From: Chloracidobacterium sp.
GTDB taxonomy: Bacteria > Acidobacteriota > Blastocatellia > Pyrinomonadales > Pyrinomonadaceae
Direction: 5' to 3'
Length of the DNA stretch: 64,000 nucleotides
Assembly: GCA_015075585.1 (NCBI GenBank)
Contig: JABTUB010000002.1
Span: 434,001 to 498,000 of the forward strand
The notes under the pieces are model-generated. The model was not told where the DNA came from and did not search any database. It saw only the letters and a program-made list of their open reading frames with translations. The position numbers and the translations under genes were made by a program. Below are positions 9,880-32,331 of the stretch, in pieces (the stretch's first letter is position 1; each line of letters opens with the position of its first letter).

Positions 9880-9920
9880 CTTGAGATCTCGCAGCGGCTT
9901 CGAGGCAAGCGAAACCACTT

Positions 9921-14626: not shown

Positions 14627-14784
14627 ATCTTGTAGTAAAAAGACAGAATGAGGGCAATTTTGCAGTGAACTTGCCGGCCGCGGGAGGCACTTTCAATGTT
14701 ACCCTAGATTTGAGGCAAAATACCAGCGATTTCCTGTCGAAATACACGGATTTGCCGTGCTTTTCGTTCTATTATAAAGCAGAA

Positions 14785-16383: not shown

Positions 16384-17416
16384 GCGAGACGTATAACTCG
16401 ACGACCTTGCGTATATTCTCGCCGTCGTCTTTTTCAGACGACTCGCATTTGCCTGCCGCGATCGATCGCTCAACTGCGTCGAACAACCCTTCAGCATCGC
16501 CATTCCTTATGAGAAACACCCCTTTGGGGCGCATACCGTTGTCGGTCGCAACGACCGGCGTTCCGAGATGCAGGGCCTCACGAACAGAGATCGCATCGCC
16601 GTCAAAAAGCGTGGTGCGGAGCAATACGTCGGCTTTGTCGATCAGATGCAGCGTTTCATTATGCGGGACATTGCCTGCCGGCACAACGGCCGCCGAGAGT
16701 CCAAGATCGGCGATCCGAGCCTCGACCTGCGTACGCAGGCTGCCGTCGCCAACGAGTATTAGCACGGCTTTCGGGAAACGCTCCAACAGCTTCGGCAGCG
16801 CCTCGACAAGAAACATCGGTTGATAATCGGCCTCAAGCCCGCCGACTGAGACCAACAACGGTTCGGCTCCGGCGACAGCCTCTTTAAGCCGCGTCGAAAG
16901 CTCTATATTCGGATCGGGCCGCGAAAGCACGAACGGCGAGATCACCTCGACCTTTTCCTTAGCCACGCCAAACTTATGAAAAGCGTCAGCGATAGCGTCG
17001 TTGACCGCGATGAGTTTTGAGAATCTTCGAAATACGATTCCGGCGATCGAGAACGGCCTTGCCTTTTGCACAAGCCCGGAGAGAGGAAAAGCACCTGAAT
17101 GGATCGTCAATACCTTCCGTTTACCGCCGAACACTGCACACGCCAGCGCCAGCGCAATCACACGCGGCGTGATATCGCCACCCAGATGCAGATGCAGCAC
17201 ATCGAATTCCATTGAACGCAAGGTGCGGATCAACGCGATAGGCGAGCGTGGCCTGAACACATTCGGCTCACTGCTCGGCGGCCCCTTTGTGGTCGCAATG
17301 AATGTGCATCGGTGGCCGCTTCGTTCGAGTTCGTCGCCGATGGCGCGCATATTGCGGCTGACACCGCCCTCGGGCGGCGGCACGGGGCCAAGTTGTACTA
17401 TGTGCAACGGTCTCAT
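16367..17416 (-). CDS. Glycosyltransferase family 4
   Basis: GT-B glycosyltransferase of 349 residues, last gene of the main polysaccharide operon. The opening HIVQLGPVPPPEGGVSRNMR is the acceptor-side Gly-rich loop of GT4 enzymes. AVLILVGDGSLRTQVEARI and NVPHNETLHLIDKADVLLRT mark the nucleotide-sugar half. GDAISVREALHLGTPVVATD carries the usual Glu (E of REALHLG) that contacts the donor ribose. It overlaps the preceding GT4 gene by 4 nt (ATGA) and the convergent beta-helix gene by 17 nt. The sugar specificity is unknown. Confidence 0.88.
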   Translation of the reverse strand: MRPLHIVQLGPVPPPEGGVSRNMRAIGDELERSGHRCTFIATTKGPPSSEPNVFRPRSPIALIRTLRSMEFDVLHLHLGGDITPRVIALALACAVFGGKRKVLTIHSGAFPLSGLVQKARPFSIAGIVFRRFSKLIAVNDAIADAFHKFGVAKEKVEVISPFVLSRPDPNIELSTRLKEAVAGAEPLLVSVGGLEADYQPMFLVEALPKLLERFPKAVLILVGDGSLRTQVEARIADLGLSAAVVPAGNVPHNETLHLIDKADVLLRTTLFDGDAISVREALHLGTPVVATDNGMRPKGVFLIRNGDAEGLFDAVERSIAAGKCESSEKDDGENIRKVVELYVSLSVAM

Positions 17417-18531
17417 TTTACAAGACTCTCATAAAGGGCCGCCGTGTCGGATAGTTGGCGTTCGGTTGAGAATTTTTCTTCTATTATGCGACGGCCCGCG
17501 GCACCGAACCGCGAGGCCTTCGCCTCATCGCAAATAAGATCGAGCAGCTTATCGGCCAATGCTGGGTCGTCATCTGAGGCGACAAGATACCCTGTTTCAT
17601 CATTGATGACGGCCTCGGCCGCTCCGCCGACATCGGTCGCAATAACAGGCTTTCCGGCGGCCATATATTCAAGGATCGAGTTCGAGAAACCCTCTGCCGT
17701 CGATGTAAGCGCGCACGCGTAAGCGGCGTCGAGCAATGCCGGAACGTCTGTACACCGTCCTATGAAATGCACGCGATCTCCGATACCCAGCGAAGCCGCC
17801 ATCGCCGCAAGCTCATCTTTCAAACCGCCTTCTCCCGCAACTACAAAATGCACGTCAGGCAACGTGCCTTTGATCCGTGCGGCCGCCCGGAGCAGCATCG
17901 GAATGTTCTTAACGCTGTGCCGAAGGTTCGCGACCGCAACGACGAGCTTTTTATCGGGCAGGCCGAGACCCGCCAAGGTTTGCTGCCTATCATTGGCTTG
18001 AGCAAAGCGGCCAAGGTCGAGGCCATTGTAGATCACACTTATCTTTTCGCTTTTCACGCCCCGCTTGATGAGATGCTCTCGCACAGCGGCGGAATTCGCA
18101 ACGATCGCATTTGCCCGGCCAAATGCGACACCCTCGACGAATTCCTGAGCCCGCGTCCGCATACCGCCGGTCTCGCGTTTTGAAGCAATACGCCCTTTCA
18201 GCCGTGCAAGTTTTCCGGCAGCCATACCGAGAATGTTCGAGTAAAAATCGTGCGAATGGATGACGTTGATCCCATTCGCGCGAAGGTAGCGTGAAAGCGC
18301 ACGAACCTGCCGGATGAAGTTGAGGTTGTAGAACGATGTCAGCCTAAACTCCGGCACATCACCTAGATCGAGGCTCTCGATGTCTTTTAGCAGGATGCCT
18401 TCTTTATTTAGTGCAGCTATCCGCACCTCGATGCGTCCGTCCTCAGCCAGAGCACGCGTCAACGCCACGGCTTGCCGCTCGCTGCCGCCTTGATGGAAGC
18501 TGCCGATCAACTGTAGTACGCGTATCTTCAC
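17413..18531 (-). CDS. Glycosyltransferase family 4
   Basis: GT-B glycosyltransferase, about 372 residues. VLQLIGSFHQGGSERQAVAL is the N-terminal Gly-rich loop, HSHDFYSNILGMAAGKLA follows the first domain core, and EGFSNSILEYMAAGKPVIAT is the classic GT4 donor-binding motif. I placed the start at GTG 18531, which overlaps the heparinase-like stop as GTGA and begins directly before the first beta strand. GTG 18546 is an in-frame alternative that adds five residues. It is translationally coupled to the next GT4 (ATGA overlap). It acts in assembling the repeat unit; the position in the chain is unknown. Confidence 0.88.
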   Translation of the reverse strand: MKIRVLQLIGSFHQGGSERQAVALTRALAEDGRIEVRIAALNKEGILLKDIESLDLGDVPEFRLTSFYNLNFIRQVRALSRYLRANGINVIHSHDFYSNILGMAAGKLARLKGRIASKRETGGMRTRAQEFVEGVAFGRANAIVANSAAVREHLIKRGVKSEKISVIYNGLDLGRFAQANDRQQTLAGLGLPDKKLVVAVANLRHSVKNIPMLLRAAARIKGTLPDVHFVVAGEGGLKDELAAMAASLGIGDRVHFIGRCTDVPALLDAAYACALTSTAEGFSNSILEYMAAGKPVIATDVGGAAEAVINDETGYLVASDDDPALADKLLDLICDEAKASRFGAAGRRIIEEKFSTERQLSDTAALYESLVK

Positions 18532-20924
18532 ACCGCTTCGGGGCACTTTTCGCCGATGGATACCGTGCTGTGGGTACCATCGGCATTTATGTAGAGGTCG
18601 CTGCCGAAACGTCGGATCGAGACGGACGCGTGACGGCCTTCGCCGTCAAATATATCGCGTTCGTTCAACCTCAGGCGGTCGCCGCCGATCAGCACGAACT
18701 CCTCAGGTATCGTTTCGTCTGCCGTCAAACGCGCCCATGAAAGATGGAAGTTCGTGTCAAAGAGTTCCGTCCGCAGCATTTCGCCGTCGCCAACGACAAA
18801 GACATCCGTATATGCGCCGAAATTTATGATAAACGCCCGGCCGCCAACAATGGACAGCTCGGCCGCTATCGGGTTCCTACGGCCGGTACCTACGGGCATT
18901 ATGAACGTAAAGAACTCCTGCATTCCGCGCCCCGTTGACAGATAACGAAGGAACGGTGCGTTCGTTTTGTTGCCGTATTCCCTGGACACCCAACTCTCTT
19001 TCCGCAGCCAGTGCCCTTCATCGCCGAAACAAAATATCCTGTGTCGTTTACTTCCCGCGTAGGCACCGTCGATCCCCGTCGAGACCTTTGTGCCTGCGGC
19101 ATAATGAAAATTCAACTGACATTCATGCGAACCCTTAACAGCAATGAGGTCGCGGATAATTATGTAGTCATTTTTCAGGAAAAGTATTTCGCGCTCGTGG
19201 GCCGCTCCGCCCTCGATGGTGTCAAAGCCGCGTGTCTGTCCCGCAAAATGGTCGAAACGCGCATCGGTTAGCGCGGCTGCAAGCTGCGTCTCGGCCCTTT
19301 CTCCCCAACGGAAAACGCCCGAAGGACGGCTCGAAGACCGGTCATCGATCGTCGCCGTGTTATGTGCCGCACTCATTCGAAAGAGGTCTCGCATCTCACG
19401 CGATTCGTGATAGGAATACGTCCCCGGATCGACGAGCAGAGTTCGGCCATTGAGCGAAAGGTCGATAGAAAGCGCATCCGCGTGGCCGTGCCCGCCCGAG
19501 AGCGAACCGACCTCACCGTGATCGACGATCAGTACAGTGTCTGTATCCGCCCAACCGTCACGCATCACCATATAGCCGCCTGCCGCAAATTCGCGCGATG
19601 CCGCCTTCGGCCTTCGGCTGTTGAGCTTTGCATACCGCGCGACGCCTTCGCTGCCTGTAAGCCAAAAAACCTCATCCAAAGCCTTCCGCGCAACATATTT
19701 CATTTCGCCTCGGCCAAGTATCGATGCACCGAGGGCGAGTGAGCCGCGAAAGTCATCGGCAGCGGCCATCGTAATTGGCAGCATTCGTCCGCCGTCATCA
19801 TCGCCGATCAATGGCGTAGTGCCGTCCGGCCGCGTTATGTACATCATGAACTCGAGTGCGGCAAGATAGCGTTGATCGGCAGCAAGATTTCGCTTATCGT
19901 ACTGCGGATCGCCGGCCAGGGAACGGAGCACGAAAAAGTGTGAGTAAAAATCGACGGTATAGCGCTGATACCATGTGCTTTGCTCAAAATAGACACCGTC
20001 GGGCAGTATCTGTTTCGTGATCTCATCAAGCAGGATGTCGCTGCCGAGCTTCGTCCAATGCTTTGCTTTTTGCAGGAACGGCAGCTGCGTACCGAGATAA
20101 TAGAGGGCGAGTGCCTCGCCGGTCAGATGCGTATTGGGGCTGTAATATTTCGAAAGGTATTTCTCGATGTGGCGGCCGTGAAGATAAAGGGCCTTTACCG
20201 CTTCCTTGAGTATTTCCGGCGTAAGTGCGGCAGAATGCCGGAATAAGTTAAGTGCCCATACCCAAGAAACAGAACGGAACGCTGCCTCAAGGCTGCTGGT
20301 CCAATTGATACCGACACCGCAAGGGTTCTGCTCGATCCACGACAGCAGATGCTCGACAACCATAAACGCATATCTTTCGTCGCGCGTCAGCGTGTAGGCC
20401 ACGCCGAGAATAAAGAAATGCTGGTGGCGGTTCAGTTCCCAAACGATCTTTTTATCACCGGTTTCCGAGGTATCGAGTTCGTCAAATTCTTTCCAATGTT
20501 TTACAGGGGCACGCAGGCCTGATATCGGTTCGAGATGCCAATCGACCTCGGTTCCGACGTACAGATTCTTGTAACCAAGCAGGTCAAAGCGTCCTTCAAG
20601 GAGCAGATCGGCCCTGCTGACGAACGCATCACACACTTCATTGCCGACGGCATCGCGAAATCCTTGCCCGATATCGCCTACGAATGAGCGAAAGAAGTGC
20701 TCATCCGCATTTTGAAAGAACACTTTCGCAACGCGCTCTGCAACTGCATCGGGATCGCGGAACCGACGCCGGTCGAGAAGCTTGAAGAATTCGCCATCCG
20801 ACAGATCACGCTCGCCCAGACCCATTTGATCACGATACGCGGACACGGCTTGGCCGCCGCGTGACAGCAGTTCGCTGACGCTGCGGCCGCGCATCTTTTT
20901 GATCGTGTCCAATGGTTTCGCCAT
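18528..20924 (-). CDS. Heparinase II/III-family polysaccharide lyase-like protein
   Basis: 798-residue protein with the two-domain heparinase II/III plan. The N-terminal alpha/alpha toroid (about 90-400) includes YYSPNTHLTGEALALYYLG, where Asn-His match the charge-neutralising pair, and STWYQRYTVDFYSHFFVL, which supplies the candidate catalytic Tyr. The C-terminal beta-sandwich (about 430-650) contains GSLSGGHGHADALSIDL with the family's His. Such enzymes beta-eliminate uronic-acid polysaccharides such as alginate or heparin. No signal peptide is visible, so export is unclear. ATG 20924 has an AAGG ribosome site; GTG 20927 is the codon just before. It sits inside the biosynthetic operon, suggesting a role in trimming, release or turnover of the polymer made here. 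Confidence 0.85.
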   Translation of the reverse strand: MAKPLDTIKKMRGRSVSELLSRGGQAVSAYRDQMGLGERDLSDGEFFKLLDRRRFRDPDAVAERVAKVFFQNADEHFFRSFVGDIGQGFRDAVGNEVCDAFVSRADLLLEGRFDLLGYKNLYVGTEVDWHLEPISGLRAPVKHWKEFDELDTSETGDKKIVWELNRHQHFFILGVAYTLTRDERYAFMVVEHLLSWIEQNPCGVGINWTSSLEAAFRSVSWVWALNLFRHSAALTPEILKEAVKALYLHGRHIEKYLSKYYSPNTHLTGEALALYYLGTQLPFLQKAKHWTKLGSDILLDEITKQILPDGVYFEQSTWYQRYTVDFYSHFFVLRSLAGDPQYDKRNLAADQRYLAALEFMMYITRPDGTTPLIGDDDGGRMLPITMAAADDFRGSLALGASILGRGEMKYVARKALDEVFWLTGSEGVARYAKLNSRRPKAASREFAAGGYMVMRDGWADTDTVLIVDHGEVGSLSGGHGHADALSIDLSLNGRTLLVDPGTYSYHESREMRDLFRMSAAHNTATIDDRSSSRPSGVFRWGERAETQLAAALTDARFDHFAGQTRGFDTIEGGAAHEREILFLKNDYIIIRDLIAVKGSHECQLNFHYAAGTKVSTGIDGAYAGSKRHRIFCFGDEGHWLRKESWVSREYGNKTNAPFLRYLSTGRGMQEFFTFIMPVGTGRRNPIAAELSIVGGRAFIINFGAYTDVFVVGDGEMLRTELFDTNFHLSWARLTADETIPEEFVLIGGDRLRLNERDIFDGEGRHASVSIRRFGSDLYINADGTHSTVSIGEKCPEAV

Positions 20925-20930
20925 CACGCC

Positions 20931-22070
20931 TTATGCACCTTTCCCCTCGCTCATGATCGTCTGTAAATGATGATCGCGATACAGGTGCGGATCACCGGTA
21001 AACCCTTCGCTGATCGCGACGGCCATATTGAACGCCTCTCGTGCACTTGCAAAGTGAATGGTCTGCTTTCCCGTCCGCGCCGCTCCTTCGACCATCTCAC
21101 CGAACAGCCGCTTTGCATCCTCACCGATACAGGCCTGCTGGTCATGATCAAAGAAACCGTGGCAATACAGCTTGATAAAGATCACATCGGACCGGCCCTC
21201 GACCGTGATATTCGCCGATGCCCAGCGCTTGAGCCTGCCGACCCCGCTTCCCAATGCGGCGGTAAGTGAACCATCGTCGATCCGCGGCCTAACGCGGCTC
21301 AGGTCAAAGATAAGCGGCCCGGTAAATATCAGTGGTAATTGCGGTTCCGTACCGTTCACCGAAAATCTCCTGCCGACCGCGTGCGGAACGGCCTGCTTCG
21401 GATCGCCGCCGTACTCGTAGATCATATTGATCATTGCAACCTGCGTTCGATCGGGCGCCGAGGGCAGCGTAAAGTCGGCGTAACAGCCCGTATCGCGAAG
21501 TATGGCCATCTCGTCATCAACGCCGCAATATTTGCCGCCGCACGAATTCGCCAAGGCGAGATTGCCGTGAACAAAGGCGTACATCGGTGCTCCCCCGCCG
21601 TGCCAACGCGAAAGGCATCGATGCCGCTCTGCAATGGTGTCCCGAAACTCTACAAGCTGACGTTCAAGGTTCTCGGCCGTGTCCGGCCGATCGACGCCGT
21701 GATGCAAATGCACCTCGACCTCGCCCAGGCCTTCCTCCTGCATCTCAGCCAAAACGTCGAGTATCTCAGGATGATATTGTTCGGCCGGATAGAAGTTCGT
21801 ATGCCGAAACTTCGTCCCGTCCGCATCGCTTACCGAATTACCGATCTCTCGTGCCATTTTGCGATAAGCGTCGAGCCGCTTCATTTGCGTCCGATGGTCG
21901 AGCACACCGCCTGAACTCCAGCCCGGCTCAAAGTGATCTGCCACAGTGATCACAATATGCTTATGCTCAAAGGCAGTCGCCTCAAGCAAAGCACGGGCGC
22001 GGACGAACGGATAGCGTACAAGCCACGGCAGGTTCCATCTTAGCTTTGTAATGAAGGTATCCTCTCCCAT
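20931..22070 (-). CDS. Polysaccharide-deacetylase-like protein (divergent)
   Basis: 379-residue protein that I could not place firmly. HIVITVADHFEPGWSSGG resembles the first strand and metal Asp/His of NodB-like deacetylases. EVEVHLHHGVDRPDTAE adds the His-rich second motif, and SDVIFIKLYCHGFFDHDQQ a later one. Together they suggest a metal-binding beta/alpha barrel. The canonical NodB TFDDG motif is absent. No signal peptide is seen. It lies between the flippase (1-nt overlap, TGATG) and the heparinase-like gene (6-nt gap), so it is surely part of polysaccharide synthesis or processing. Deacetylation of an amino sugar is the best guess; a non-enzymatic role is possible. Confidence 0.6.
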   Translation of the reverse strand: MGEDTFITKLRWNLPWLVRYPFVRARALLEATAFEHKHIVITVADHFEPGWSSGGVLDHRTQMKRLDAYRKMAREIGNSVSDADGTKFRHTNFYPAEQYHPEILDVLAEMQEEGLGEVEVHLHHGVDRPDTAENLERQLVEFRDTIAERHRCLSRWHGGGAPMYAFVHGNLALANSCGGKYCGVDDEMAILRDTGCYADFTLPSAPDRTQVAMINMIYEYGGDPKQAVPHAVGRRFSVNGTEPQLPLIFTGPLIFDLSRVRPRIDDGSLTAALGSGVGRLKRWASANITVEGRSDVIFIKLYCHGFFDHDQQACIGEDAKRLFGEMVEGAARTGKQTIHFASAREAFNMAVAISEGFTGDPHLYRDHHLQTIMSEGKGA

Positions 22071-23665
22071 CAGCTTGCCGCCTCAGCCGTGTTCGACCTT
22101 CGATGCAGGATCATCTTGTCGATGAACTGCCGCACCGTTCTCTTTTCTTCGGGTTCGATCACACCAAAAAGATTCGCAAAGAATAGATATACGGGCGCGA
22201 ACACCGCCCCCGAGACTGCAAGCACAAGCCCGCCGCCGATAAGATTGCGGATTCCCATCTTCTCCGACATCAGCACACCGCGCACGAAGTGTTCGCCGAT
22301 CGCCATCACGTGATCGTGCGTTCCCGCATACACGAGATATGTCGCGGCCCCGGCTATGATGCTGGCGACACCGGTCTTACCGATACTCTTTAAAAGCGGC
22401 AAGTGCCGCCGGCCGACGCCGAGTTTGACAAAGATCATGGTCTCGGCAAAGCACTTTTCGATCACTATCGCAGCAACAGCGACCGCGATAAAACCTGTCA
22501 ATCCAAGATACGGCAGGCCGAAATACAGGCCTGCTATCAGCATCATGAGGATCAATATTCGCGTCAGCAGGAACAGCCTGCCAAGCTCCTTGTAAGAGCG
22601 AAGCACCGGATCAGTTATCACGATGCTGAATGGCAGTATCGTGAGGTTGACCATGAAGATAGGCGCGCTCGCCGCATACTTTTCGGTAAATAGTGTTATG
22701 ACAAAGGTGTTCGCAGTAATAAGCAGAAAGATGTAGATCGGGAAATAGAAGAACGAAAGTTTTTGCGACGCCCGTGCCGTGAGCCTGATCATCTCATCTC
22801 GGTCGCCTACGAGCTGCAGTTCATTCATTCGCGGGATCAGAACGGAGGTTACGGATTCGGAGAGCATCGCGATCAGCGGCACTTCAAAACAGCCATACGC
22901 ATAGATCGCAAAGTCTGCGGACGAGAATTTATATCCGACAAAATAATTATGTATATCATTTTGTGCCATCCACAGAATGCCGGCCAAGCCGAACGGCATA
23001 GCGTAACGCATCTGCTCCCAAAAGAATGAGAGGTCGAAGGATCGCCAAAAGCCGGGAAACCGCGATGTCAGGTACACAAGCAGAATTGCCGTTTGGATAA
23101 CGCCCTGCACCATCGCCGCGTACATGAACGACTCGACCGTAGCGAACTCAAAGACAGCGGCACCCATGAATATGGTCTTGCTTAACTGAGCGATGATGAT
23201 GAAGACGGTCGCGATCCGGGCTTCTTGATTTGCGATCGCGACCGTTTCAAGAAAGGTTGAGAATATCCAGATCCAAATGACAACGCCGATCTTCGGAGCA
23301 AGTTCCGTAAGTGCCTCACTCTGAAAGACATCGCCGATTATCCGCGGGTAGAGATTGAGCGCAAGGCATGCAAGGCCGCCGACAAAGAAATTGAAGACCA
23401 GGATATTTAGAATCGAAGCCGCTCTTCGCTCCTGACTTTCCCTTGCGAGAAAATAGTATGCGCTCATCGAGAAGCCTAACGGCAGCAGCACCACCGCGTT
23501 GGCAATTACTTGAAACGCCGCACGATAGTGCCCGACCTCTTGCTGCGGCAGATAACGCACGATAAGCAGCGGCAGCACAAAGCTGAAGCCAAAGCCGATG
23601 ATCTTGGCGGCCAACAGCCATGCGCTCTGCTCTTTTAATGAGCGTTTTTCAGCCGATCCTGTCAT
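22070..23665 (-). CDS. Polysaccharide flippase (Wzx/MATE-like)
   Basis: Inner-membrane protein of 531 residues with 12-14 hydrophobic helices. The start (SAWLLAAKIIGFGFSFVLPL, then IVRYLPQQEVGHYRAAFQVI) is the usual first-helix and loop pattern of polysaccharide biosynthesis flippases, with the Gln/Gly turn before helix 2. It would flip undecaprenyl-linked repeat units to the periplasm, where the ligase/polymerase-like protein (26858-28432) would act. It overlaps the FkbM-type gene upstream by 17 nt and the deacetylase-like gene downstream by 1 nt. The cytoplasmic C-terminal tail is charged and contains KMILHRRSNTAEAAS. Confidence 0.88.
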   Translation of the reverse strand: MTGSAEKRSLKEQSAWLLAAKIIGFGFSFVLPLLIVRYLPQQEVGHYRAAFQVIANAVVLLPLGFSMSAYYFLARESQERRAASILNILVFNFFVGGLACLALNLYPRIIGDVFQSEALTELAPKIGVVIWIWIFSTFLETVAIANQEARIATVFIIIAQLSKTIFMGAAVFEFATVESFMYAAMVQGVIQTAILLVYLTSRFPGFWRSFDLSFFWEQMRYAMPFGLAGILWMAQNDIHNYFVGYKFSSADFAIYAYGCFEVPLIAMLSESVTSVLIPRMNELQLVGDRDEMIRLTARASQKLSFFYFPIYIFLLITANTFVITLFTEKYAASAPIFMVNLTILPFSIVITDPVLRSYKELGRLFLLTRILILMMLIAGLYFGLPYLGLTGFIAVAVAAIVIEKCFAETMIFVKLGVGRRHLPLLKSIGKTGVASIIAGAATYLVYAGTHDHVMAIGEHFVRGVLMSEKMGIRNLIGGGLVLAVSGAVFAPVYLFFANLFGVIEPEEKRTVRQFIDKMILHRRSNTAEAAS

Positions 23666-24518
23666 TTTTGGTCACTGAACTGTGTCTTGCGTGGGTGTCA
23701 TACCAGCCCGGCACCGAACGCTTAAGCACCCGCTCGACGGTATGGATGAAGTTTCTGCCTTTCTCGGTCTGCACCAGATACGAATAATCTCCGAACAGCC
23801 AGTATTTCACAAAGATCCGGCGATATTCCCTGATCACCGCATCACGCGATCGCCATTTGCCTTCGGTATCTTCGCCGATCGGCCCGGACGCCCCTTCTTC
23901 AAACTCGTACAATCGGCCGCCGTTACCGTCGGGAACCGAGGCAAAAGAACGCTCAAAATCCTGTTTGATCGCCTTGAACTCGTGATAGCCAAGCTTCTCC
24001 AGAAGGTCGAACTCATATATGAGGTTTCTGAAGATGACCTTCTCAGAGCGGATAGACAGATAGTCGGGCTTATTCTCAAAATCGAGCATCGCGCGCAGGC
24101 AAACCACTTCGGATCCGACAATGTCCGCCTTCATAAATTGCGGCACACCGTGCTTTTCCATCTCAGCACCGAAGTCAACCGCATTGACCTCGATCTGCTC
24201 CATTGCGGTATCGTAGATCTCGTTGCGAAAAACCCAATCGAGCGAGTTACTGCCCCAAAGATTATGATCGCGGTTCCGATAGAATCTTGTGGTCGGATCT
24301 TTTGACGCCTCGGTGATGGCTCCTTCGACTATCGTCAAACGGCCATTCTCGATCGCATCAGCAAAGCGTTTGCGGCAGAACTCGGCATTCTGAGGGTCGG
24401 CCTCAAAGGCGACGACCTTGTAGCCTTTTGCTAAATAGAAGTCCGTGTCCTGGCCTCGATGCAGACCTACATCAAAGACAAGATCGCGGACTTTTGGGGT
24501 CGTTCTCAGTGATGACAT
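23649..24518 (-). CDS. FkbM-family methyltransferase
   Basis: SAM-dependent methyltransferase-like protein, 289 residues. DLVFDVGLHRGQDTDFYLAK is motif I and VVAFEADPQNAEFCRKRF is the strand-2 region ending in an acidic residue, both typical of FkbM proteins. QFMKADIVGSEVVCLRAM matches the family's D-x-E/G segment, though FkbM proteins usually read DIEGxE here, so one position has changed (DIVGSE). ATG 24518 has a GAGAG ribosome site and was preferred over GTG 24545. It begins after a 95-122 nt gap from the GT2 gene, the largest within this operon, and overlaps the flippase by 17 nt. O-methylation of a sugar is likely but unproven. Confidence 0.82.
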   Translation of the reverse strand: MSSLRTTPKVRDLVFDVGLHRGQDTDFYLAKGYKVVAFEADPQNAEFCRKRFADAIENGRLTIVEGAITEASKDPTTRFYRNRDHNLWGSNSLDWVFRNEIYDTAMEQIEVNAVDFGAEMEKHGVPQFMKADIVGSEVVCLRAMLDFENKPDYLSIRSEKVIFRNLIYEFDLLEKLGYHEFKAIKQDFERSFASVPDGNGGRLYEFEEGASGPIGEDTEGKWRSRDAVIREYRRIFVKYWLFGDYSYLVQTEKGRNFIHTVERVLKRSVPGWYDTHARHSSVTKNDRIG

Positions 24519-24582
24519 GGCACTCTCAACACGCGGATGATGCACTCTGGCCGGGCATGGCGCATAGCATCTTCGCTTAAGA

Positions 24583-24606
24583 AAAATATCAATGGCCTGA
24601 TATTTT
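24583..24606. repeat. Perfect AT-rich 9-bp inverted repeat in operon gap
   Basis: AAAATATCA and TGATATTTT are exact complements separated by 6 nt (ATGGCC). On the minus strand the stem is followed by TTCTT, so it may act as a weak terminator or processing site between the GT2 and FkbM-type genes. It may instead be a protein-binding dyad upstream of the latter. The stem has only two GC pairs. Confidence 0.5.
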
Positions 24607-24624
24607 CAGGAAAGCCGGAAACCG

Positions 24625-24642
24625 ACTTAAATTACTTAAATT
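24625..24642. repeat. Two tandem 9-bp copies (ACTTAAATT)
   Basis: The nonamer ACTTAAATT occurs twice back to back; the second copy overlaps the stop codon of the GT2 gene. It is AT-rich compared with the surrounding coding sequence. No function is evident beyond a possible regulator site or slippage. Confidence 0.6.
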
Positions 24643-25693
24643 ATTGACCGCGTCCCGCAAAGGGCCTGCCCACAGCACCGCCCGGCACCATCGCTATTTC
24701 ATCGGCCCGATTGCTGCGGTAGCGGTCGAGCACAAGCCTTGGCGCAACTCGCAGGCCGATGGTGATCAGAAGCAATTTCAACGATCTGCGGTGCCGGTTC
24801 GCCTCGGCGAATGCCCGGCGCGCGCCCGCGAAGTCCTCGCTTATCAAAAGAGCCTTGCCGCGCTCGACCTCAAGATCCGCCTGCAGGCCCTTAACACGCC
24901 GCTCAAGAAGTTCCATGTCCTTCGCATCAAGATCGACCATTCTCTTGATCCGGTTAAAGACATCGATCTCACGCTCGACACGGCTTACCGAATCACCCGA
25001 AAGGCTGTTCAGGTGCACTCGATATTTCAAAAGCACGGTTCGCTGATAGCCGATCCGGGCACCATTCCTCGCCATTCGGACCCAAAGGTGGAAATCATGT
25101 GCGCGCGCGCGTTCCTGCTCGAACATCCCCGCATCGATGATCGCCGATCTCAAAGCCACGGTCCCCGAAGTGATGACATTGCACCTAAAATCCAACAGCG
25201 ATGCTACCGTAACTTCGCCCTCTGAAGGAGCAGATTCCATGAACGTGCGCCGCAATGCAGACCGCATTCCGAACTGCTGTGCGTCACAATAGACCATATC
25301 GTGTCCGCGGCCCAGGAACGTAACTTGCGAAGTAAGGAAATCGGGCAGCCAAATATCATCGCCGTCGAGGAACGCAATGATCTCGCCCCGAGCATGACGG
25401 ATCGCCGTATTTCGGGCGGCTCCGGCCCCTTGGCTCGGCTGCTTGATGTAAATGATATTCTCGCGATGCGGCTGGATCGCCCGCTCAAATGCGGCGGTGT
25501 CAGGCGAGCCGTCATTGACGACTATCACCTCGTGATCGCGAAAACGCTGAGCGGCGACCGATTCCAGTGTCTCACCGATAAATTCGGCAACATTGTATGC
25601 CGGTATCACCACGCTCACCCTTGGTGCCCATGAAAAGATATTTCGGCCTACATTGACCTCGATCCCGAGCTTTTTGTCCTCTGATGACAACAT
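24641..25693 (-). CDS. Glycosyltransferase family 2
   Basis: GT-A glycosyltransferase of 350 residues. VSVVIPAYNVAEFIGETLES opens the nucleotide-binding fold, EVIVVNDGSPD holds the first Asp pair, and GEIIAFLDGDDIWLPDFL gives the DxD metal site. The remainder is a charged helical region (LERRVKGLQADLEVERGK) that may mediate partner contacts. ATG 25693 overlaps the previous gene's TAA (TAATG), indicating coupling; the frame continues upstream but would invade that gene. Probably inverting; substrates unknown. Confidence 0.9.
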   Translation of the reverse strand: MLSSEDKKLGIEVNVGRNIFSWAPRVSVVIPAYNVAEFIGETLESVAAQRFRDHEVIVVNDGSPDTAAFERAIQPHRENIIYIKQPSQGAGAARNTAIRHARGEIIAFLDGDDIWLPDFLTSQVTFLGRGHDMVYCDAQQFGMRSALRRTFMESAPSEGEVTVASLLDFRCNVITSGTVALRSAIIDAGMFEQERARAHDFHLWVRMARNGARIGYQRTVLLKYRVHLNSLSGDSVSRVEREIDVFNRIKRMVDLDAKDMELLERRVKGLQADLEVERGKALLISEDFAGARRAFAEANRHRRSLKLLLITIGLRVAPRLVLDRYRSNRADEIAMVPGGAVGRPFAGRGQ

Positions 25694-26874
25694 TACGATC
25701 GCACCTCGCGGATCGGCTCCCAAGTTGCGTACCTCTCGCCTCGTATGAATCTGTAGAAGGCGATGACCGATGCAAGATTAGCAAGAACAAAATAAAGCGG
25801 CACAACAAGGAGCGTAATTCGAATATCAAGACGCTCAAGGATCGAGCCGACAAGGGCACTCAGATAAAATGCCGCCTGTAACACTGACGCCACAAAAAAG
25901 AATGGTGATGAGGCGGCCAACACAACGCTTGAAATGAACATTCCTGCAAGCATGAGAGGTACGGCGTAACGCAGAGCCTTATGCGAGATCAGCTCGATCG
26001 CGTAGAAGCCGCTCTTGAACGGATTCAACATATCGGCATTTCTCACAAGATCGGCCAGCGTCTGCGAGATCACGCGTATCCGCATCCGCATCTCATCATC
26101 AGTGTTCTGATTCGTTTCCTCAAAACACACCGCGGACGGCTCGAACACACTCCGCAGATCATTGCGGTAAAGCACTGTGCAGATCAGAAAATCAGAGCAT
26201 GCCTCCGGATACATCTCGCGATATGCCGAACGCCTGACCGCGTACATACAGCCCGAAGCTCCAATAAGCGAACACGCCCTGCTCTCGGCCGACCTCAAGA
26301 ATGTCTCATAGTTCCAATAACCTTGCGTTCCCTTGCCTACGTTCGAATCGTCATTATTAACATATTCGAGGCGGCCGGCCACACATCCGACAGAGTCATC
26401 GGCAAATGCAGGCAGTATCCGCTCAAGCACATCCTGCGTGTACTCGGTCGTTGCGTCGCTGAATAGAACGATCTCGCCGGCCGCTTCCGCAATCGCACGA
26501 TTCTGCGTCTCGGTCTTGCCGACACGGCCATCTTGTCGGAAAAGTTTTACGCCTCGGCCCGCGTATTCCTTCACGATCTCATCCGTCCGGTCGGTCGAGC
26601 CGTCTGAGGCGACCAATATCTCGAGCTTCTCCGCCGGATAGTCGATATCAAGTGTATTATCAAGCTTTCGACGGATTGCTTTTTCTTCGTTGAATGCCGT
26701 TATCAGCACCGTAACGCTCGGCTCGATGTTGCTGCGATGAACCTTCTTGGGAAACAGCCGCGAAACAGCATACACAAGAAGCGGATAGCCGAAATATACA
26801 TAACCCAAAAGGGCAACGCATATCCAAAACACTATCGCTGATGTTGTGTAGAACATATCAAACCGCAGCGGCAT
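25693..26874 (-). CDS. Membrane-bound glycosyltransferase family 2
   Basis: GT2 enzyme with membrane segments at both ends (393 residues). A first helix (IVFWICVALLGYVYFGYPLL) precedes the catalytic domain. VTVLITAFNEEKAIRRKLD opens the domain, VASDGSTDRTDEI carries the first Asp, EIVLFSDATTEYTQDVL the acceptor-side Asp, and NTDDEMRMRIRVISQTLAD sits where processive relatives have ED and QxxRW. A QxxRW motif is not visible, so a non-processive, transfer-type role is more likely. At least three C-terminal helices follow. ATG 26874 has a CAGGCGG ribosome site and overlaps the ligase gene by 17 nt; ATG 26856 is the alternative. Confidence 0.87.
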   Translation of the reverse strand: MPLRFDMFYTTSAIVFWICVALLGYVYFGYPLLVYAVSRLFPKKVHRSNIEPSVTVLITAFNEEKAIRRKLDNTLDIDYPAEKLEILVASDGSTDRTDEIVKEYAGRGVKLFRQDGRVGKTETQNRAIAEAAGEIVLFSDATTEYTQDVLERILPAFADDSVGCVAGRLEYVNNDDSNVGKGTQGYWNYETFLRSAESRACSLIGASGCMYAVRRSAYREMYPEACSDFLICTVLYRNDLRSVFEPSAVCFEETNQNTDDEMRMRIRVISQTLADLVRNADMLNPFKSGFYAIELISHKALRYAVPLMLAGMFISSVVLAASSPFFFVASVLQAAFYLSALVGSILERLDIRITLLVVPLYFVLANLASVIAFYRFIRGERYATWEPIREVRS

Positions 26875-28432
26875 CCGCCTGCCAGGCCGCCGTAGCGGCC
26901 TCTTCTACCTCGTTCTCGATACTGAAGATCCGGCGAAACGCCACCGCATACGCGATCAAGTAATAGATGAACCAATTATAAGCTACGGATGCGAAGAAAC
27001 TTGAGACCATGTAGCCGATGATGCTCGCTTGAAAGCCGATCGACAGATAATAGAACCAGTTCGCACTGCCCTCATCGAACAGCTTACGCTCGATCGCCGA
27101 AAGCTTCCTGAATGGACTGATCATAAAGATCAGGTACGCAACAAGGCCCATTATACCAAGCTCGGAACTCACCTGTGTGAATGCGTTATGCGACTGCAAA
27201 TTTCGTATGCCGACGATCGGGAAATTGCCGATGCCGATGCCCCACGGATTGCGTGCGGTAACGAGAAGCGAGCGTTCGAGCAACTCCTTCCGCTGGTCGG
27301 ACGACCCTACCGGATCAAGGCCCGGAATAAAGATGGACAGCATACGAAGTCCGTAATTGCCCGGTGCGGCAACTATGACGATCAGACCTATCACTGCCGA
27401 AGCTATCGATACATTCAGGCGCTGACGGCGGCCAAGCTTCCACGCCAAGACCAGCCCCACAGCCAGCAAGCCAAGAAAGCCTCCGCGCGAAAACGTGACC
27501 ATATTCGCTCCGACGAGAAGAGCCGCAATGACCCAATAAATGATACGCCACAGCTTTGATCGGGATGCGATGCCTAAAGTGATCACAAGCGGCGTCATCA
27601 TCACAAAATGCATCGCCATCTCATTCGGGTTGCCGAACATACCGCCGACATCGACCGCAACACGGTATTCCTCCACCGTGAACTGCCCTTTCATATACAT
27701 ATCAAGGGCCGCAAATGAGAGATAAACGGCAATACCGAAGGACAACCACAGCAGCCCCATCAGACGCTTTCGCGTTCGGACGACATTTATCAGCACAATG
27801 AAGATCACAACCGCTTTAAGATACGGATCGTTGAACTTCTCCCACGCGAGGCCCGGATCTTTGGCGATCGGCATCGTTAGAAGAGCGATGACCGTCATTG
27901 CGAGTATCGCCTTGACCTCGGTCGAGAATATCGTCAGATTGCCTTCGATCGCGAGCTGTGACGGGATGTAGATGATCAGTGTCGCAAGTGCAAAATAGAA
28001 TGCGGTCGCCGAAAGGAACGCGAGCGACGAGATCAGCTCATAGGGCCGAAATAATACGAGGATCGAAAACAGGTAAAGGCCGATATACGTAAAAAAATGA
28101 CCGTTGCGGACAAGCCATCGATCTGCGGTGAGAAGCTGCTTGTCCTTGATGGCACGCTTCTCATCCTTGGTCGGCCGAAATACGACAAAACGCTCTTCTG
28201 CCGGTGCCTCGGCGGCTGATGTTGCGACTGAGGCCTCTATCTCCCGCGCACGTTCCTTTGCGTGTTCGACAGCGGCCGCCGTATTTTGAAGGCCGTTAAT
28301 GTGCGTGTCTGTCTTTGCGGCTGCGCCCGCCGGTTTCAATGAATCAAAAGGACCTGAAGCCACTCGGCTGCGGCTCTTGGCAGTATTCACGAGTGGCTTG
28401 TGGTCGCGTGTATCTGATCCTGTATTCTTCAT
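26858..28432 (-). CDS. O-antigen ligase/polymerase-like (Wzy/WaaL type) membrane protein
   Basis: Polytopic membrane protein, 524 residues. After about 105 hydrophilic N-terminal residues (Ala/Glu/Lys-rich, no signal peptide) come roughly 11 helices. GGMFGNPNEMAMHFVMMTPL and MVTFSRGGFLGLLAV are the conserved stretches of the O-antigen ligase family. The large periplasmic loop contains DQRKELLERSLLVTARNPWG and LQSHNAFTQVSSELGIMGL, where NPWGIGIGNF and the His (QSHNAF) match the family's catalytic loop. It would polymerise or transfer the repeat units flipped by the Wzx-like protein. The long cytoplasmic extension is unusual. It starts 26 nt after the regulator gene's stop. Confidence 0.88.
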   Translation of the reverse strand: MKNTGSDTRDHKPLVNTAKSRSRVASGPFDSLKPAGAAAKTDTHINGLQNTAAAVEHAKERAREIEASVATSAAEAPAEERFVVFRPTKDEKRAIKDKQLLTADRWLVRNGHFFTYIGLYLFSILVLFRPYELISSLAFLSATAFYFALATLIIYIPSQLAIEGNLTIFSTEVKAILAMTVIALLTMPIAKDPGLAWEKFNDPYLKAVVIFIVLINVVRTRKRLMGLLWLSFGIAVYLSFAALDMYMKGQFTVEEYRVAVDVGGMFGNPNEMAMHFVMMTPLVITLGIASRSKLWRIIYWVIAALLVGANMVTFSRGGFLGLLAVGLVLAWKLGRRQRLNVSIASAVIGLIVIVAAPGNYGLRMLSIFIPGLDPVGSSDQRKELLERSLLVTARNPWGIGIGNFPIVGIRNLQSHNAFTQVSSELGIMGLVAYLIFMISPFRKLSAIERKLFDEGSANWFYYLSIGFQASIIGYMVSSFFASVAYNWFIYYLIAYAVAFRRIFSIENEVEEAATAAWQADAAAV

Positions 28433-28458
28433 TTACGGCCAGGCAGTTCGAGTATCCA

Positions 28459-29676
28459 TCAGGCCGGCACCTCTTGCCGTTCGAGCGTGATCATAGAACG
28501 GATCCGCGTCCTCAAGGCCTTTTCGAACTGCCGCGCCTCGTTTACACCGTTAAAGGTCAGCTCCTGAAGATTGGCCTCGATCCTCTTGCGATAGTCTGAC
28601 ACGAGTGAGTCCGAGACGCCAAGCATTTCCGCCACCTCAAGTTGATTGCCGCTGTCGGAAACCAGATAGCAATGCCACAGGATGTTAAGCATGCGGTCGT
28701 ACTGCTTTTCTTTGCCGCGAACCGCCTTGTTAAGCATCTCGAGAAATCCGTCCACGTAGCCCGCCGCTTCACGCTCAGCCTCACCGCGAAGCAGATCCTC
28801 TTCGGGCGTCTCACGAATATCCTTGAACTCGAACGGCATGCGATCGTCGTCGTCACTCTCTGACGATCCGCCGACCGGCACGAGATGAATATCCATTATC
28901 GGAAGCCGCGACATCACGAATGAACGAAGGCTGCGAATATCGACCGGCGAATCGATCGCCTTAAAAACACGAATAATGAGTTTCTCAAGTTCCGCATTGC
29001 TTATTACGATCTGCGCATCGCCCGTGCAGCCGACCATGCGTGTATCGCGGGCCTTGAAGGCAACGACCTTGACCCTTTCGTCCATCTCCTGGACATCGCG
29101 GTGTACCTTTTGATCTTTCCAATCAGCGAGGCCGTAAAGCCTGTCAACCAACCTCCGATGAACTTCCGGAGTGCTTACATTATCAAATCGTTTGAAAAGC
29201 TTGCTTGTTTGGACGAGCGTTGAGATGCGGCGTGCCAAGCGGTAGCTCTCAGGATAGCGTTTACGCAGCTCGGCGGTGAGCATATTTGTCAGCTCGATCT
29301 GGCTGATCTCGGCCTCGATCTCGACGTCGGACATCGAGGTGTCGAGATAATGTTGGAATCTCTCCTTGCTTAAAAGTGCTACGAAAAGCTCCTGTGTAAG
29401 GTCGGTGTAAGCGTTCTGCCGGCCCTCTTCCACCAAGAAGCCCGCACGCTTTGAGGCTCTCACAAGCGGATGTGATGATACGATCCGGTGGAGCTCCGTC
29501 CAGATCTGATTCACATCCGATGCCTGCAGGCTCTCATTCCATTTGCCTACACGGATCTGTCTTCCTGATGTTGACCGAATTTTGCGTTCCTGAGATTTCA
29601 CTTCATTCATATTCAGCCTGTCCCGATCGCGGTCTCCGTGCTCGATCGAGGACGGATATTCCCGTTGTGCTTCCAT
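28459..29676 (-). CDS. Sigma-factor-like DNA-binding protein (unusual, 405 aa)
   Basis: Not recognised with certainty. Residues 91-150 (TDLTQELFVALLSKERFQ, then AELRKRYPESYRLARR) resemble sigma-70 region 2, where DLxQExFxxLL is the usual core. A C-terminal helix-turn-helix at about 345-366 (QLEVAEMLGVSDSLVSDYRK) resembles region 4. Between them lie about 190 residues with an acidic stretch (SSESDDDDRMPFEF), far longer than in ECF sigma factors. It precedes the ligase gene by 26 nt, so it is probably the first gene of the polysaccharide operon and may control it. A zf-HC2 protein is encoded divergently. ATG 29676 has GAGAAAA upstream; ATG 29610 is possible. A non-sigma regulator remains possible. 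Confidence 0.55.
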   Translation of the reverse strand: MEAQREYPSSIEHGDRDRDRLNMNEVKSQERKIRSTSGRQIRVGKWNESLQASDVNQIWTELHRIVSSHPLVRASKRAGFLVEEGRQNAYTDLTQELFVALLSKERFQHYLDTSMSDVEIEAEISQIELTNMLTAELRKRYPESYRLARRISTLVQTSKLFKRFDNVSTPEVHRRLVDRLYGLADWKDQKVHRDVQEMDERVKVVAFKARDTRMVGCTGDAQIVISNAELEKLIIRVFKAIDSPVDIRSLRSFVMSRLPIMDIHLVPVGGSSESDDDDRMPFEFKDIRETPEEDLLRGEAEREAAGYVDGFLEMLNKAVRGKEKQYDRMLNILWHCYLVSDSGNQLEVAEMLGVSDSLVSDYRKRIEANLQELTFNGVNEARQFEKALRTRIRSMITLERQEVPA

Positions 29677-30140
29677 CGGTTCGCGTTTTCTCGCAGGCCG
29701 GTCAAATGACCCGGCTTTTGATGCGCGTTACTGTATCCGAGATGCGGCGAATTTCCGCACTATCGAAATAATTCCGATCCTGGTAGATGTGATCTGGCTT
29801 GATCTGTGGTCGAGCTATTCTGTTGATCGAGTTGCGGTGGGTGAGAAGATTGCCGTCTCACTACCTACACTTAAGATAGTAGCAATTAAGGCAGAAATGA
29901 GCAACAATTTTTTGCATACACAAAGTTCTTTGTGCCATTACTCTAATCTCTTTAATATCAACTGCTTACAAGACGGTGCAACTTGAGATTACGGTGCTGA
30001 TGACAAAATGTGTGATTTTGTTCTCATAAGTTTTGGAACGTTTCAGCCATTACAGATTTATGTTTTATGTAACCTTTGAAGCGGCTGAGCACTGTTTTCA
30101 GGTCAGCCCATGGTGACGGTCCGCTTACGGGTCGCTTGAT
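29677..30140. other. 464-nt AT-rich divergent intergenic region
   Basis: Gap between the sigma-like gene and the zf-HC2 gene. No credible gene was found in it. It is visibly richer in A and T than its neighbours between about 29870 and 30080, so it probably holds the promoters of both divergent genes. Seen in it: a stem GCCGG/CCGGC around a 9-nt loop near 29697, and a hairpin with GTGAGA (29841-29846) and TCTCAC (29856-29861). No match to a standard -35/-10 pair stood out, which would fit an alternative-sigma promoter. Confidence 0.6.
29841..29861. promoter_or_regulatory. Hairpin in divergent regulatory region
   Basis: GTGAGA and TCTCAC are perfect complements with a 9-nt loop; one further wobble pair may extend the stem. 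It would lie in the leader of the sigma-like gene if transcription starts upstream. No T-run follows, so a terminator is unlikely; an operator or mRNA structure is possible. Confidence 0.35.
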
Positions 30141-30455
30141 ATGTTCACTGCGAAGAAGATCAATTTCTCAAAGAACGAAGATTGTCCGCCGTCGGATGAA
30201 CTGCTCGATTTCCAGAATGGAGAAATGAGCGTCGCCCGCGGTTTGGCGGTATGTGCGCACCTTGCGATCTGTGATTTCTGCTCGGCTGAAGTGGAGTTCT
30301 ATTCCCGCTATCCGCAGGCAAAGGGTGAGGCCGTATCTGACGAAGAGCCGGCTGCAATCCCCGGCCCGCTCTATGAGTTGGCGGAGGCCATTCTTAATGA
30401 CAGCCGCAGTCCCGACATCCTGAACAGCCTTTTACAAAAAAAGGCCGGTAAGTAG
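30141..30455 (+). CDS. zf-HC2 zinc-finger protein (anti-sigma type, soluble)
   Basis: 104-residue protein. CPPSDELLDFQNGEM followed by AVCAHLAICDFCSAEVEFY is the zf-HC2 (ZAS) domain, with candidate zinc ligands C15, H40, C44 and C47 (H-x3-C-x2-C). In ECF systems this domain sits at the N-terminus of anti-sigma factors and binds the sigma factor. Here there is no transmembrane segment, so it is presumably a cytoplasmic anti-sigma or redox-sensing protein like RsrA. Its C-terminal 50 residues (LYELAEAILNDSRSPDIL) are short and helical. It is divergent from the sigma-like gene across 464 nt, so a partnership is inferred. No strong ribosome site precedes the ATG. Confidence 0.75.
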   Translation: MFTAKKINFSKNEDCPPSDELLDFQNGEMSVARGLAVCAHLAICDFCSAEVEFYSRYPQAKGEAVSDEEPAAIPGPLYELAEAILNDSRSPDILNSLLQKKAGK

Positions 30456-30504
30456 ATAACCTTACGCGGCCGAGTCCGATCTTCTGCGATCGACCGAACC
30501 TTCG

Positions 30505-32331
30505 CTACATTCCGCAGATCTCATCGATCGCTTCGCAGTACTTCTCATCAATTACGCTTCGCTTTATCTTAAGTGTCGGCGTCATTTCGCCCTTGTCTAT
30601 TGAGAATTCACGTGCCAGCAGGTAAACGCGCTTAACCCTTTCGTAATCCGAAAGCTCGCGCGTGAGGTCAACGGCGTCTTGCTGTACACGTTTAATGAAC
30701 AACGGATCCTCACATAATTCTTCGCGGGGCCTGGAAACATCGTGGCCGGCAGCTTTCATTTCCTCTTTGAGTGCCTCCCAATCGGGGACGATGAGCACGC
30801 CCACCTGCTTGCGTCCTGATCCGACGACAACAGGCTGAGAAATGAGAGGGCTTTGCTTGAGCAGGCTTTCTATCTGAAGCGGTGCAATGTACTTGCCGTT
30901 CGATAGTTTGAAAAGATCCTTCAATCGATCGGTGATGTAGAAATGTCCGTCCTGATCGACATAACCGACATCACCGGTATGGTAATATCCTTCGGCATCA
31001 AGAACGGCCGCCGTCGATGCCGGGTCGTTGTAATAGCCCTTCATCACATTTCTGCCGCGCACCAGCACTTCGCCCTGATCCCCGATCTTTATCTCGATCC
31101 CCTCGAAAGGCGTCCCGATCGAGCCTACCTTATTGTCATTCGGCCTATTGGCACTGACGATGCCTCCTTCCGTCATGCCGTAGCCTTGAAGTATCGGGAT
31201 TCGTGCTGCCCAAAATGCGTAGCTTAGCTTCTTTGAGAGCGGCGCTCCGCCCGAAACAAAGAACTGCAATGAACCGCCGACGCCTTCGCGCCATTTTGAG
31301 AACACCAGTCGATCCGCAACTGCATATTTAGCTGCGATCGCCGGCGTGACCTTATTGTGCGTATCTTTTGCCGCCCAATATTCTTGACCGACGGTAAGCG
31401 ACCATTCGAAAAGCTTGGTTCGCCATCCGCCGGCGCTCTTCCCCTTTTTGACGATCTTGTGATAGACCTGTTCAAAAAGACGCGGTACGGCCGTCATTAT
31501 CGTCGGTTTGACCTCCTGCAAATGACCGGCGAGCTGGTCAAAGGCCGAGCAATAATGAATTGAGACGCCGTTCGCGCAAAGCACGTAAAAAACCGCCCGC
31601 TCGAAAATATGCGACAAAGGCAGCACCGCCAAACTGCGGTCGGATGACCGGATCGGCAAGCCGTGTGAGATCGCAATGATATTCGATACAAAATTATCGT
31701 GCGTAAGCATCACGCCCTTCGGCTCGCCTGTGGTTCCGGACGTGTAGATTATCGTCGCAAGGTCTTCCGGCTCGATCTGTGACAATGATCTGTCAACAAA
31801 TTCCGCATCGATCTTTTGATATTCAGCTCCCGCGGCCTCAAGTTCGGCCAGCGTGATACTCCGGCTGTCGCCGTCCTGAACAACGCCGTCATCAAAGAAT
31901 ATGAGCTTTTCGAGCTGCTCAACCGTCTGCACCGCCTGCTCGGCATGCTTCAAGATCTTCTTTCCCGAGATGAACAGCATCCGCGCGCCGGACCTTTCCA
32001 AGATATATCGCACCTGCTCGACAGCCTGCGTGGTATAGATCGGGACCACGACGGCTCGGAGACTCAACACCGCAAGATCGACGAGCGACCATTCAGGCCT
32101 ATTTTCGCTTATGATCGCGATCCGATCGCCTGCCTTAACTCCGTAAGAGGCCAGCCCAAAGGCGATGCGCTTTATACGCTCGATCGCATCGCTGCCGCGG
32201 ATATATTTCCACTCTCCGCCAAGCTTGTAGCCTAACGCATCGGACTTATCATACCGGGCGAACGCCTCAAGACAATAGTGAGGGATCGTTTGAGGGATCC
32301 GGTCAAAACCTGACAGATTGTCTGTGGCCAT
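30505..32331 (-). CDS. Long-chain acyl-CoA synthetase (AMP-forming)
   Basis: ANL-superfamily ligase of 608 residues that would activate fatty acids with ATP and CoA. IIYTSGTTGEPKGVMLTH is the phosphate-binding signature, ILQGYGMTEGGIVSANRP the A5 region, and GYYHTGDVGYVDQDGHFY the A7/A8 hinge. DRLKDLFKLSNGKYIAPL leads to the C-terminal domain, whose catalytic Lys region is DKGEMTPTLKIKRSVI. This is the FadD15/long-chain type with lid insertions. ATG 32331 begins MATDNLSGFDRIP as in relatives; ATG 32367 would add 12 residues but read through a hairpin. Last gene of the accD operon. It may feed lipid synthesis or beta-oxidation with the acyl-CoA dehydrogenase at 44825. Confidence 0.92.
   Translation of the reverse strand: MATDNLSGFDRIPQTIPHYCLEAFARYDKSDALGYKLGGEWKYIRGSDAIERIKRIAFGLASYGVKAGDRIAIISENRPEWSLVDLAVLSLRAVVVPIYTTQAVEQVRYILERSGARMLFISGKKILKHAEQAVQTVEQLEKLIFFDDGVVQDGDSRSITLAELEAAGAEYQKIDAEFVDRSLSQIEPEDLATIIYTSGTTGEPKGVMLTHDNFVSNIIAISHGLPIRSSDRSLAVLPLSHIFERAVFYVLCANGVSIHYCSAFDQLAGHLQEVKPTIMTAVPRLFEQVYHKIVKKGKSAGGWRTKLFEWSLTVGQEYWAAKDTHNKVTPAIAAKYAVADRLVFSKWREGVGGSLQFFVSGGAPLSKKLSYAFWAARIPILQGYGMTEGGIVSANRPNDNKVGSIGTPFEGIEIKIGDQGEVLVRGRNVMKGYYNDPASTAAVLDAEGYYHTGDVGYVDQDGHFYITDRLKDLFKLSNGKYIAPLQIESLLKQSPLISQPVVVGSGRKQVGVLIVPDWEALKEEMKAAGHDVSRPREELCEDPLFIKRVQQDAVDLTRELSDYERVKRVYLLAREFSIDKGEMTPTLKIKRSVIDEKYCEAIDEICGM

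Follow-up and report, generated by a model that had tools for sequence, protein, structure and literature searches.

Two divergently oriented genes in the window (the whole 64,000-nucleotide stretch of Chloracidobacterium sp. DNA that was analysed) appear to encode a sigma-70-family factor and its soluble zinc anti-sigma factor, a reading to which we give a probability of about 0.78. The factor would be built of a sigma2 domain, an inserted domain of ~120 residues and a sigma4 domain, and its partner would be a soluble RsrA-like zinc anti-sigma protein.

Layout of the locus

The features of the locus are as follows.

25693-26874, minus strand: GT2 glycosyltransferase, next in the cluster after the ligase
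26858-28432, minus strand: Wzy_C / PEP_O_lig_1-like polysaccharide ligase ORF, the first gene after the sigma-like gene
28459-29676, minus strand: gene for a divergent sigma-70-family protein, 405 aa as called and 383 aa by the conserved start at 29610
28555-28824, minus strand: sigma4-like domain, residues 263-352, with the helix-turn-helix QLEVAEMLGVSDSLVSDYRKR (TIGR02937; VIA match to SigD region 4)
28825-29184, minus strand: inserted middle domain, residues 143-262, YGLADW ... RDTRMVGCTGDAQIVIS ... IIRVFKAIDSPVDIRSLRSFV (family conservation; common to the sister sigma family)
29185-29544, minus strand: sigma2-like domain, residues 23-142, with the motif DLTQELF (TIGR02937; VIA match to SigW; segment identities)
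29864-29913, minus strand: promoter-like block for the sigma-like gene, TTGTTGCTCA ... TG-n-TAcTAT (conserved in 51 aligned intergenic regions)
30031-30061, plus strand: promoter-like block for the zinc gene, TTTTGGAA-N9-CATTACAGATTTAT (mismatch count versus shuffles)
30141-30455, plus strand: gene for a soluble CHCC zinc anti-sigma protein (class I anti-sigma domain), 104 aa

The ORFs, strands and spacing given in the first-pass annotation were all as described: a 405-aa ORF whose stop codon is followed, after 26 nt, by the ligase ATG, and a divergent ORF of 104 aa. The length of 405 aa stands for the ORF and not for its start. Nearly all relatives of the sigma-like protein start at the second ATG (29610), which is also a conserved column in the upstream alignment. 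Because the orthologues mostly start there, the protein is probably 383 aa long rather than 405, and its residues are numbered here in the 383-aa form.

Sigma-70 features of the large protein

Curated sigma HMMs matched the window sigma-like protein weakly and below every cut-off, and none of the Pfam models matched it above cut-off. The NCBIfam model TIGR02937 gave an E-value of 0.0017 in a single alignment (67-350) that joined region 2 and region 4. The same model matched 37 of the 38 orthologues (best E 3.2e-5), which places the region-2-like and region-4-like segments reported earlier beyond chance; against a 48% identical orthologue, E was 1.2e-6. The sigma2 part was the best conserved segment, with the highest identity to distant members in most pairs, and DLTQE of the region 2.2 motif DLTQELF was nearly invariant in the family.

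A template-free AF2 model built from 38 sequences was poor (mean pLDDT 61, pTM 0.38). Its 13 best Foldseek rows were all sigma factors or their RNA polymerase complexes, none of which passed E 0.001. VIA-align matched model residues 284-354 to SigD region 4 (Z 6.8, rmsd 2.6 over 62 residues) and residues 21-114 to SigW region 2 (Z 5.9, rmsd 2.6 over 77 residues). For a protein made of helices, Z values of 6-7 are modest, and by themselves they would be weak evidence for a sigma factor. Segment-wise profile comparison of the family with ordinary ECF factors was weak as well. Against the PDB, single-sequence phmmer found no sigma match (FliS alone, E 0.56), and the family profile A3 found generic HTH and nothing else.

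The stronger link to sigma factors, as judged from sequence profiles, runs through a sister family of 350-380-aa proteins (L176-L182, L198). It was reached through weak matches of the window-family profile and is scattered among Acidobacteriota, with a further occurrence on an Abditibacteriota plasmid; no plasmid relatives of the window sigma-like protein itself were found. Two sister proteins, in which region 2 lies far from region 4 with the same gap, exceeded the TIGR02937 cut-off of 42.9 (50.6 and 47.3 bits), and Pfam cut-offs were passed by L177 for PF04542 and by L178 for PF04545. A bridging member, L026, was part of the original window-family profile, and the link was therefore tested in both directions. 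With L026 left out and E-values calculated for 5000 sequences, the window-family HMM reached L026 at 2e-5 and L177 at 0.009. Conversely, the sister-only profile A5, which includes L026 and excludes all orthologues of the window protein, found the window gene with an E-value of 1.3e-10, the match covering model positions 29-232 (sigma2 and middle domain). The alignment of the two families spans the same two domains, with RLKNRLRYLL..F.W ... GFAVW ... SPxELDxLV in the sister family and RLARRISTLV..F.. ... YGLADW ... SPVDIRSLRSFV in the window family.

TIGR02937, the sister family and the structure matches (Foldseek, VIA) thus agree. We conclude that the large protein is a divergent sigma-70-family protein, an assignment that is well supported, and we predict that it binds RNA polymerase.

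A conserved domain between sigma2 and sigma4

Region 2 and region 4 are indeed set far apart, as the first-pass annotation had stated, and the ~120 residues between them form a conserved domain (143-262) and no loose linker. This domain, with the signature RDTRMVGCTGDAQIVIS, is kept across the family. The window protein shares with ECF (group IV) factors the sigma2 and sigma4 segments and the match to the TIGR02937 superfamily. However, ECF factors are defined by sigma2 and sigma4 with a short linker, whereas the window protein has a conserved domain of about 120 residues in that place; it falls outside the group and is set apart by architecture only. The non-canonical factors ECF41, ECF42 and ECF238 carry N- or C-terminal extensions and have no anti-sigma (PMC8999054). 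Like them, the window protein has an extra domain within the sigma polypeptide, but it carries that domain internally and has an anti-sigma.

When the whole family was compared by hhalign with the ECF factors of its own genome, the middle and C-terminal part aligned to regions 2-4. A second sigma2 within the middle domain was considered and rejected, as segment by segment it was the N-terminal part rather than the middle that matched region 2.2. In this segment-wise comparison the C-segment scores were not cleanly over the reversed decoy. Homologues from family f2 (L023 928-2175, L024 1480-2715) have a long extra insert between sigma2 and the middle domain, which holds an AT-hook-like stretch (RRGRPSKKAKP or KRGRPPKAAK); no zinc partner was seen for these two.

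The middle domain could instead be a highly diverged sigma3, in which case there would be no insertion and the large protein would be a group 3 sigma2-sigma3-sigma4 factor. Whole-length Foldseek and VIA rows of the model include group-1 and sigma28-type factors, and in most family members the C-terminal part gives matches to the SigE/SigK models of sporulation sigma factors (the SigE models align at residues 313-349 of the window protein). However, the middle domain matched none of the ordinary sigma-factor profiles, group-1 included, Sigma70_r3 was not among the matches listed for the 38 family members, and the best full-length sequence model was that of the superfamily, TIGR02937. We consider a group 3 factor unlikely.

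It is also improbable that the large protein, though derived from a sigma factor, has lost RNA polymerase binding and serves as a DNA-binding regulator, with the zinc protein modulating its binding to DNA. Its extreme divergence from the curated sigma models would fit such a regulator, and the long insertion could upset the distance between sigma2 and sigma4. Yet sigma2, the main core-polymerase-binding part, is the very segment that is best conserved, its DLTQE is nearly invariant, and sister proteins exceed the sigma cut-off.

The zinc protein and class-I anti-sigma domains

The 104-aa protein had been described as a soluble CHCC zinc protein, and the survey of its relatives bears this out. 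The four ligands (C15, H40, C44, C47) were invariant in 49/49 aligned relatives, the pattern C-x(22-26)-HxxxCxxC was present in all 70 zinc-protein relatives, and no membrane segment was found in the protein (maximal 19-residue hydropathy median 0.64). The NCBIfam models ChrR (E 3.5e-5) and RseA (E 8.6e-5) matched it, both below their cut-offs, and the zf-HC2 model matched 11 of 49 relatives. The first hit of a PDB profile search was the anti-sigma factor DdvA (E 0.062).

In the AF2 model (pLDDT 78, core about 90) the helices span residues 18-26, 31-43 and 45-56 and are followed by a linker and a conserved helix at 75-86 (PLYELAEAIL). The 11 best Foldseek rows were all anti-sigma factors or their sigma complexes, among them DdvA, ChrR, RslA and the SigK-bound anti-sigma domain, none of them significant by E-value. 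The best VIA match was ChrR (Z 7.2); RslA reached Z 6.2. The ChrR/RseA family matches, DdvA in the PDB and the anti-sigma fold rows together point to a zinc anti-sigma domain, as had been proposed. Class-I anti-sigma domains contact sigma4 through helices 1-3 and sigma2 through helix 4 (PMC7406223), and the zinc protein fits this layout with a three-helix bundle and a separate fourth helix. Its Hx3Cx2C motif lies over helices 2 and 3 and is joined by an upstream ligand, the arrangement that characterizes ZAS proteins. We conclude that the 104-aa protein is a soluble class-I zinc anti-sigma domain; this is well supported, and binding of zinc and of a sigma factor is predicted.

An N-terminal Cys ligand has been proposed to separate disulfide-sensing RsrA from HHCC proteins, although a conflicting report is noted in the same paper (PMC4960319). 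In the window protein and its relatives this ligand is Cys (Cys15 in 49/49), and the invariant CHCC set is that of the redox-sensing type in PMC4960319, in line with the ligand part of the earlier suggestion of a response to redox or zinc. By analogy with RsrA, redox may well be the signal of the pair, with odds slightly better than even.

SigR of Streptomyces coelicolor, a compact ECF factor that lacks a middle domain, is part of the thiol-stress response; ChrR has a second, cupin domain. The window pair resembles SigR-RsrA in its soluble anti-sigma, its Cys-His-Cys-Cys ligands and an N-terminal Cys suited to a trigger disulfide (PMC4960319), but differs in the ~120-aa insert of the sigma factor and in the divergent orientation of the genes. 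With SigE-ChrR of Rhodobacter sphaeroides it shares the zinc anti-sigma domain fold, ChrR being the best VIA row; however, the window zinc protein has CHCC ligands where ChrR has HHCC (PMC4960319), and it has no second domain.

In the mechanism that we consider most likely, the zinc-bound anti-sigma would clamp sigma4 and sigma2 with its three-helix bundle and fourth helix (PLYELAEAIL) and would thereby keep the factor away from RNA polymerase. Thiol oxidation or zinc loss would link Cys15 to Cys44 or Cys47, upon which the anti-sigma would collapse and the sigma factor would be free to transcribe its regulon.

Conservation of the gene pair

Conserved synteny of the two genes, named in the first-pass annotation as a check, was found in a survey of 162 Blastocatellia genomes. 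The sigma-like profile matched 121 of these genomes, and the zinc-protein profile gave 115 good matches, 100 of them within 3 kb of the sigma-like gene. In all 100 of these cases the genes were divergent (median distance between the aligned parts, 522 bp). Both genes were present in 103 genomes. Several of the 15 non-adjacent zinc matches lay at contig ends of fragmented assemblies or were second copies. The sigma-like gene is kept in single copy across the whole family, and the pair, present in almost all relatives, is ancestral. A sigma-like gene without a recognised zinc gene occurred in 16 genomes, mostly of two other families (f2 and most of f6); since the gene persists there, the zinc anti-sigma is not obligatory. 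G417, from one of these two families, has a diverged pair 58 bp apart.

Downstream of the sister sigma genes, on the same strand, lie genes for proteins of 430-460 aa, most of which have zf-HC2 domains, and zinc anti-sigma pairing is therefore a property of the larger group. The sister family shares with the window family the order sigma2 - middle domain - sigma4 and a zf-HC2 partner; it differs in the size of the partner (430-460 aa) and its position downstream on the same strand, and its sigma parts are nearer the curated models. On the Abditibacteriota plasmid, the sister gene is followed by a gene whose 448-aa product contains both HxxxCxxC and a hydrophobic segment. Both genes of the plasmid pair are annotated as hypothetical.

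The zinc protein might act on another sigma factor and owe its place to conserved synteny only. Some 460-530 bp separate the two divergent genes, while most sigma/anti-sigma pairs are co-transcribed, and in f2 and most of f6 the sigma-like gene has survived with no zinc gene. We hold this reading very improbable, given that the pair is kept in 100/100 adjacent cases while the outer genes on both sides change, that another family has a diverged pair 58 bp apart and that zf-HC2 partners adjoin the sister sigmas. We infer that the adjacent sigma factor is the partner that the zinc protein physically binds.

Promoter-like blocks between the genes

Each gene has a promoter-like block of its own, and both blocks stood out in the alignment of 51 intergenic regions. 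The block of the sigma-like gene, placed about 265 nt ahead of the conserved start, is similar to a housekeeping promoter of the extended -10 kind and may serve as the promoter. If so used, it would give an mRNA leader of about 250 nt (29611-29863), within which another stretch is partly conserved; Rfam gave no match in 28000-30800.

The block of the zinc gene had a median of 3 mismatches in 70 loci versus 9 in shuffles, and as these loci are related, the low count shows conservation and not independent recurrence. At up to 3 mismatches the block had one genomic site, and a looser 14-base form had 4 genomic sites versus 1 in the control. A search of the genome for a regulon through this block showed none, and because the block is unique in the genome, no regulon can be proposed from it. 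That the sigma factor feeds back on its anti-sigma gene is a guess.

Polysaccharide genes near the pair

The first-pass annotation had proposed that the pair may control exopolysaccharide output. We examined 53 Pyrinomonadaceae loci, counting a ligase if it lay within 2.5 kb downstream. Polysaccharide genes followed the sigma gene in 29 loci (a ligase in 28, only a glycosyltransferase in 1), a convergent Ser/Thr kinase gene came next in 18, and the remaining 6 had other genes or a contig end. The convergent kinase is orthologous to the window kinase (6538-9006, plus strand), which in the window lies, with its neighbours, across the block 9010-28432 from the sigma-like gene. Because the kinase and sigma-like genes are direct convergent neighbours in 18/53 loci, the polysaccharide cluster at 9010-28432 seems to be a variable block that occupies a fixed chromosomal site, flanked by two conserved landmarks. 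Among seven genomes without a ligase at the site, five had a more distant ligase elsewhere and two had none at the threshold used. The window ligase itself scored 88.4 bits with PEP_O_lig_1, below the cut-off of 188.1 bits. A 799-aa protein encoded within the cluster (18528-20927) resembles the heparin-sulfate lyase HepC (E 5.5e-36, below cut-off).

Exopolysaccharide control is thus not established: the pair is kept where the kinase takes the place of the ligase, and because this is so in 18/53 loci, the pair is independent of the operon that it heads in the window. Beyond the sigma/anti-sigma reading, the pair could be a dedicated regulator of the exopolysaccharide operon that it precedes, which we regard as a tentative proposal, somewhat below even odds. 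The gap of 26 nt to the ligase and the ligase within 2.5 kb in 28 of the 53 loci speak for it. So does G283, from another family, in which a homologue lies upstream of an exosortase/XrtA-type cluster with an XrtA polysaccharide deacetylase, a FemAB protein and a glycosyltransferase above curated cut-offs (TIGR03006, TIGR03019, TIGR03087); polysaccharide genes lie near the homologue in G426 and G259 too. Against it stand the 18 loci that keep the pair without such an operon there and the two of seven ligase-less sites whose genomes had no ligase match. Some regulation of neighbouring polysaccharide genes by the sigma/anti-sigma pair is plausible, at a little under an even chance, because other families of the class also have the gene amid polysaccharide genes.

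Significance

Our literature search found no paper on Pyrinomonadaceae sigma factors or on exosortase with an anti-sigma. The pair might represent a separate sigma-70 class, with a conserved regulatory domain embedded between sigma2 and sigma4 and mostly with a zinc anti-sigma, that exerts redox control of surface polysaccharide in Blastocatellia; we regard this as doubtful. Such redox control by a sigma/anti-sigma pair would be unlike the RpoN-dependent control reported for some PEP-CTERM/floc loci (PMC9850573).

The order sigma2 - internal domain - sigma4 is barely detected by curated models and has no description among the papers found, and sigma factors of this kind are readily overlooked or remain annotated as 'hypothetical protein'. 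The architecture is kept throughout a family of soil Acidobacteriota, and its fixed divergent zinc anti-sigma makes partner and signal testable together. The repeated closeness of the pair to polysaccharide genes offers a first handle on the control of surface polysaccharide in these hard-to-culture soil bacteria.
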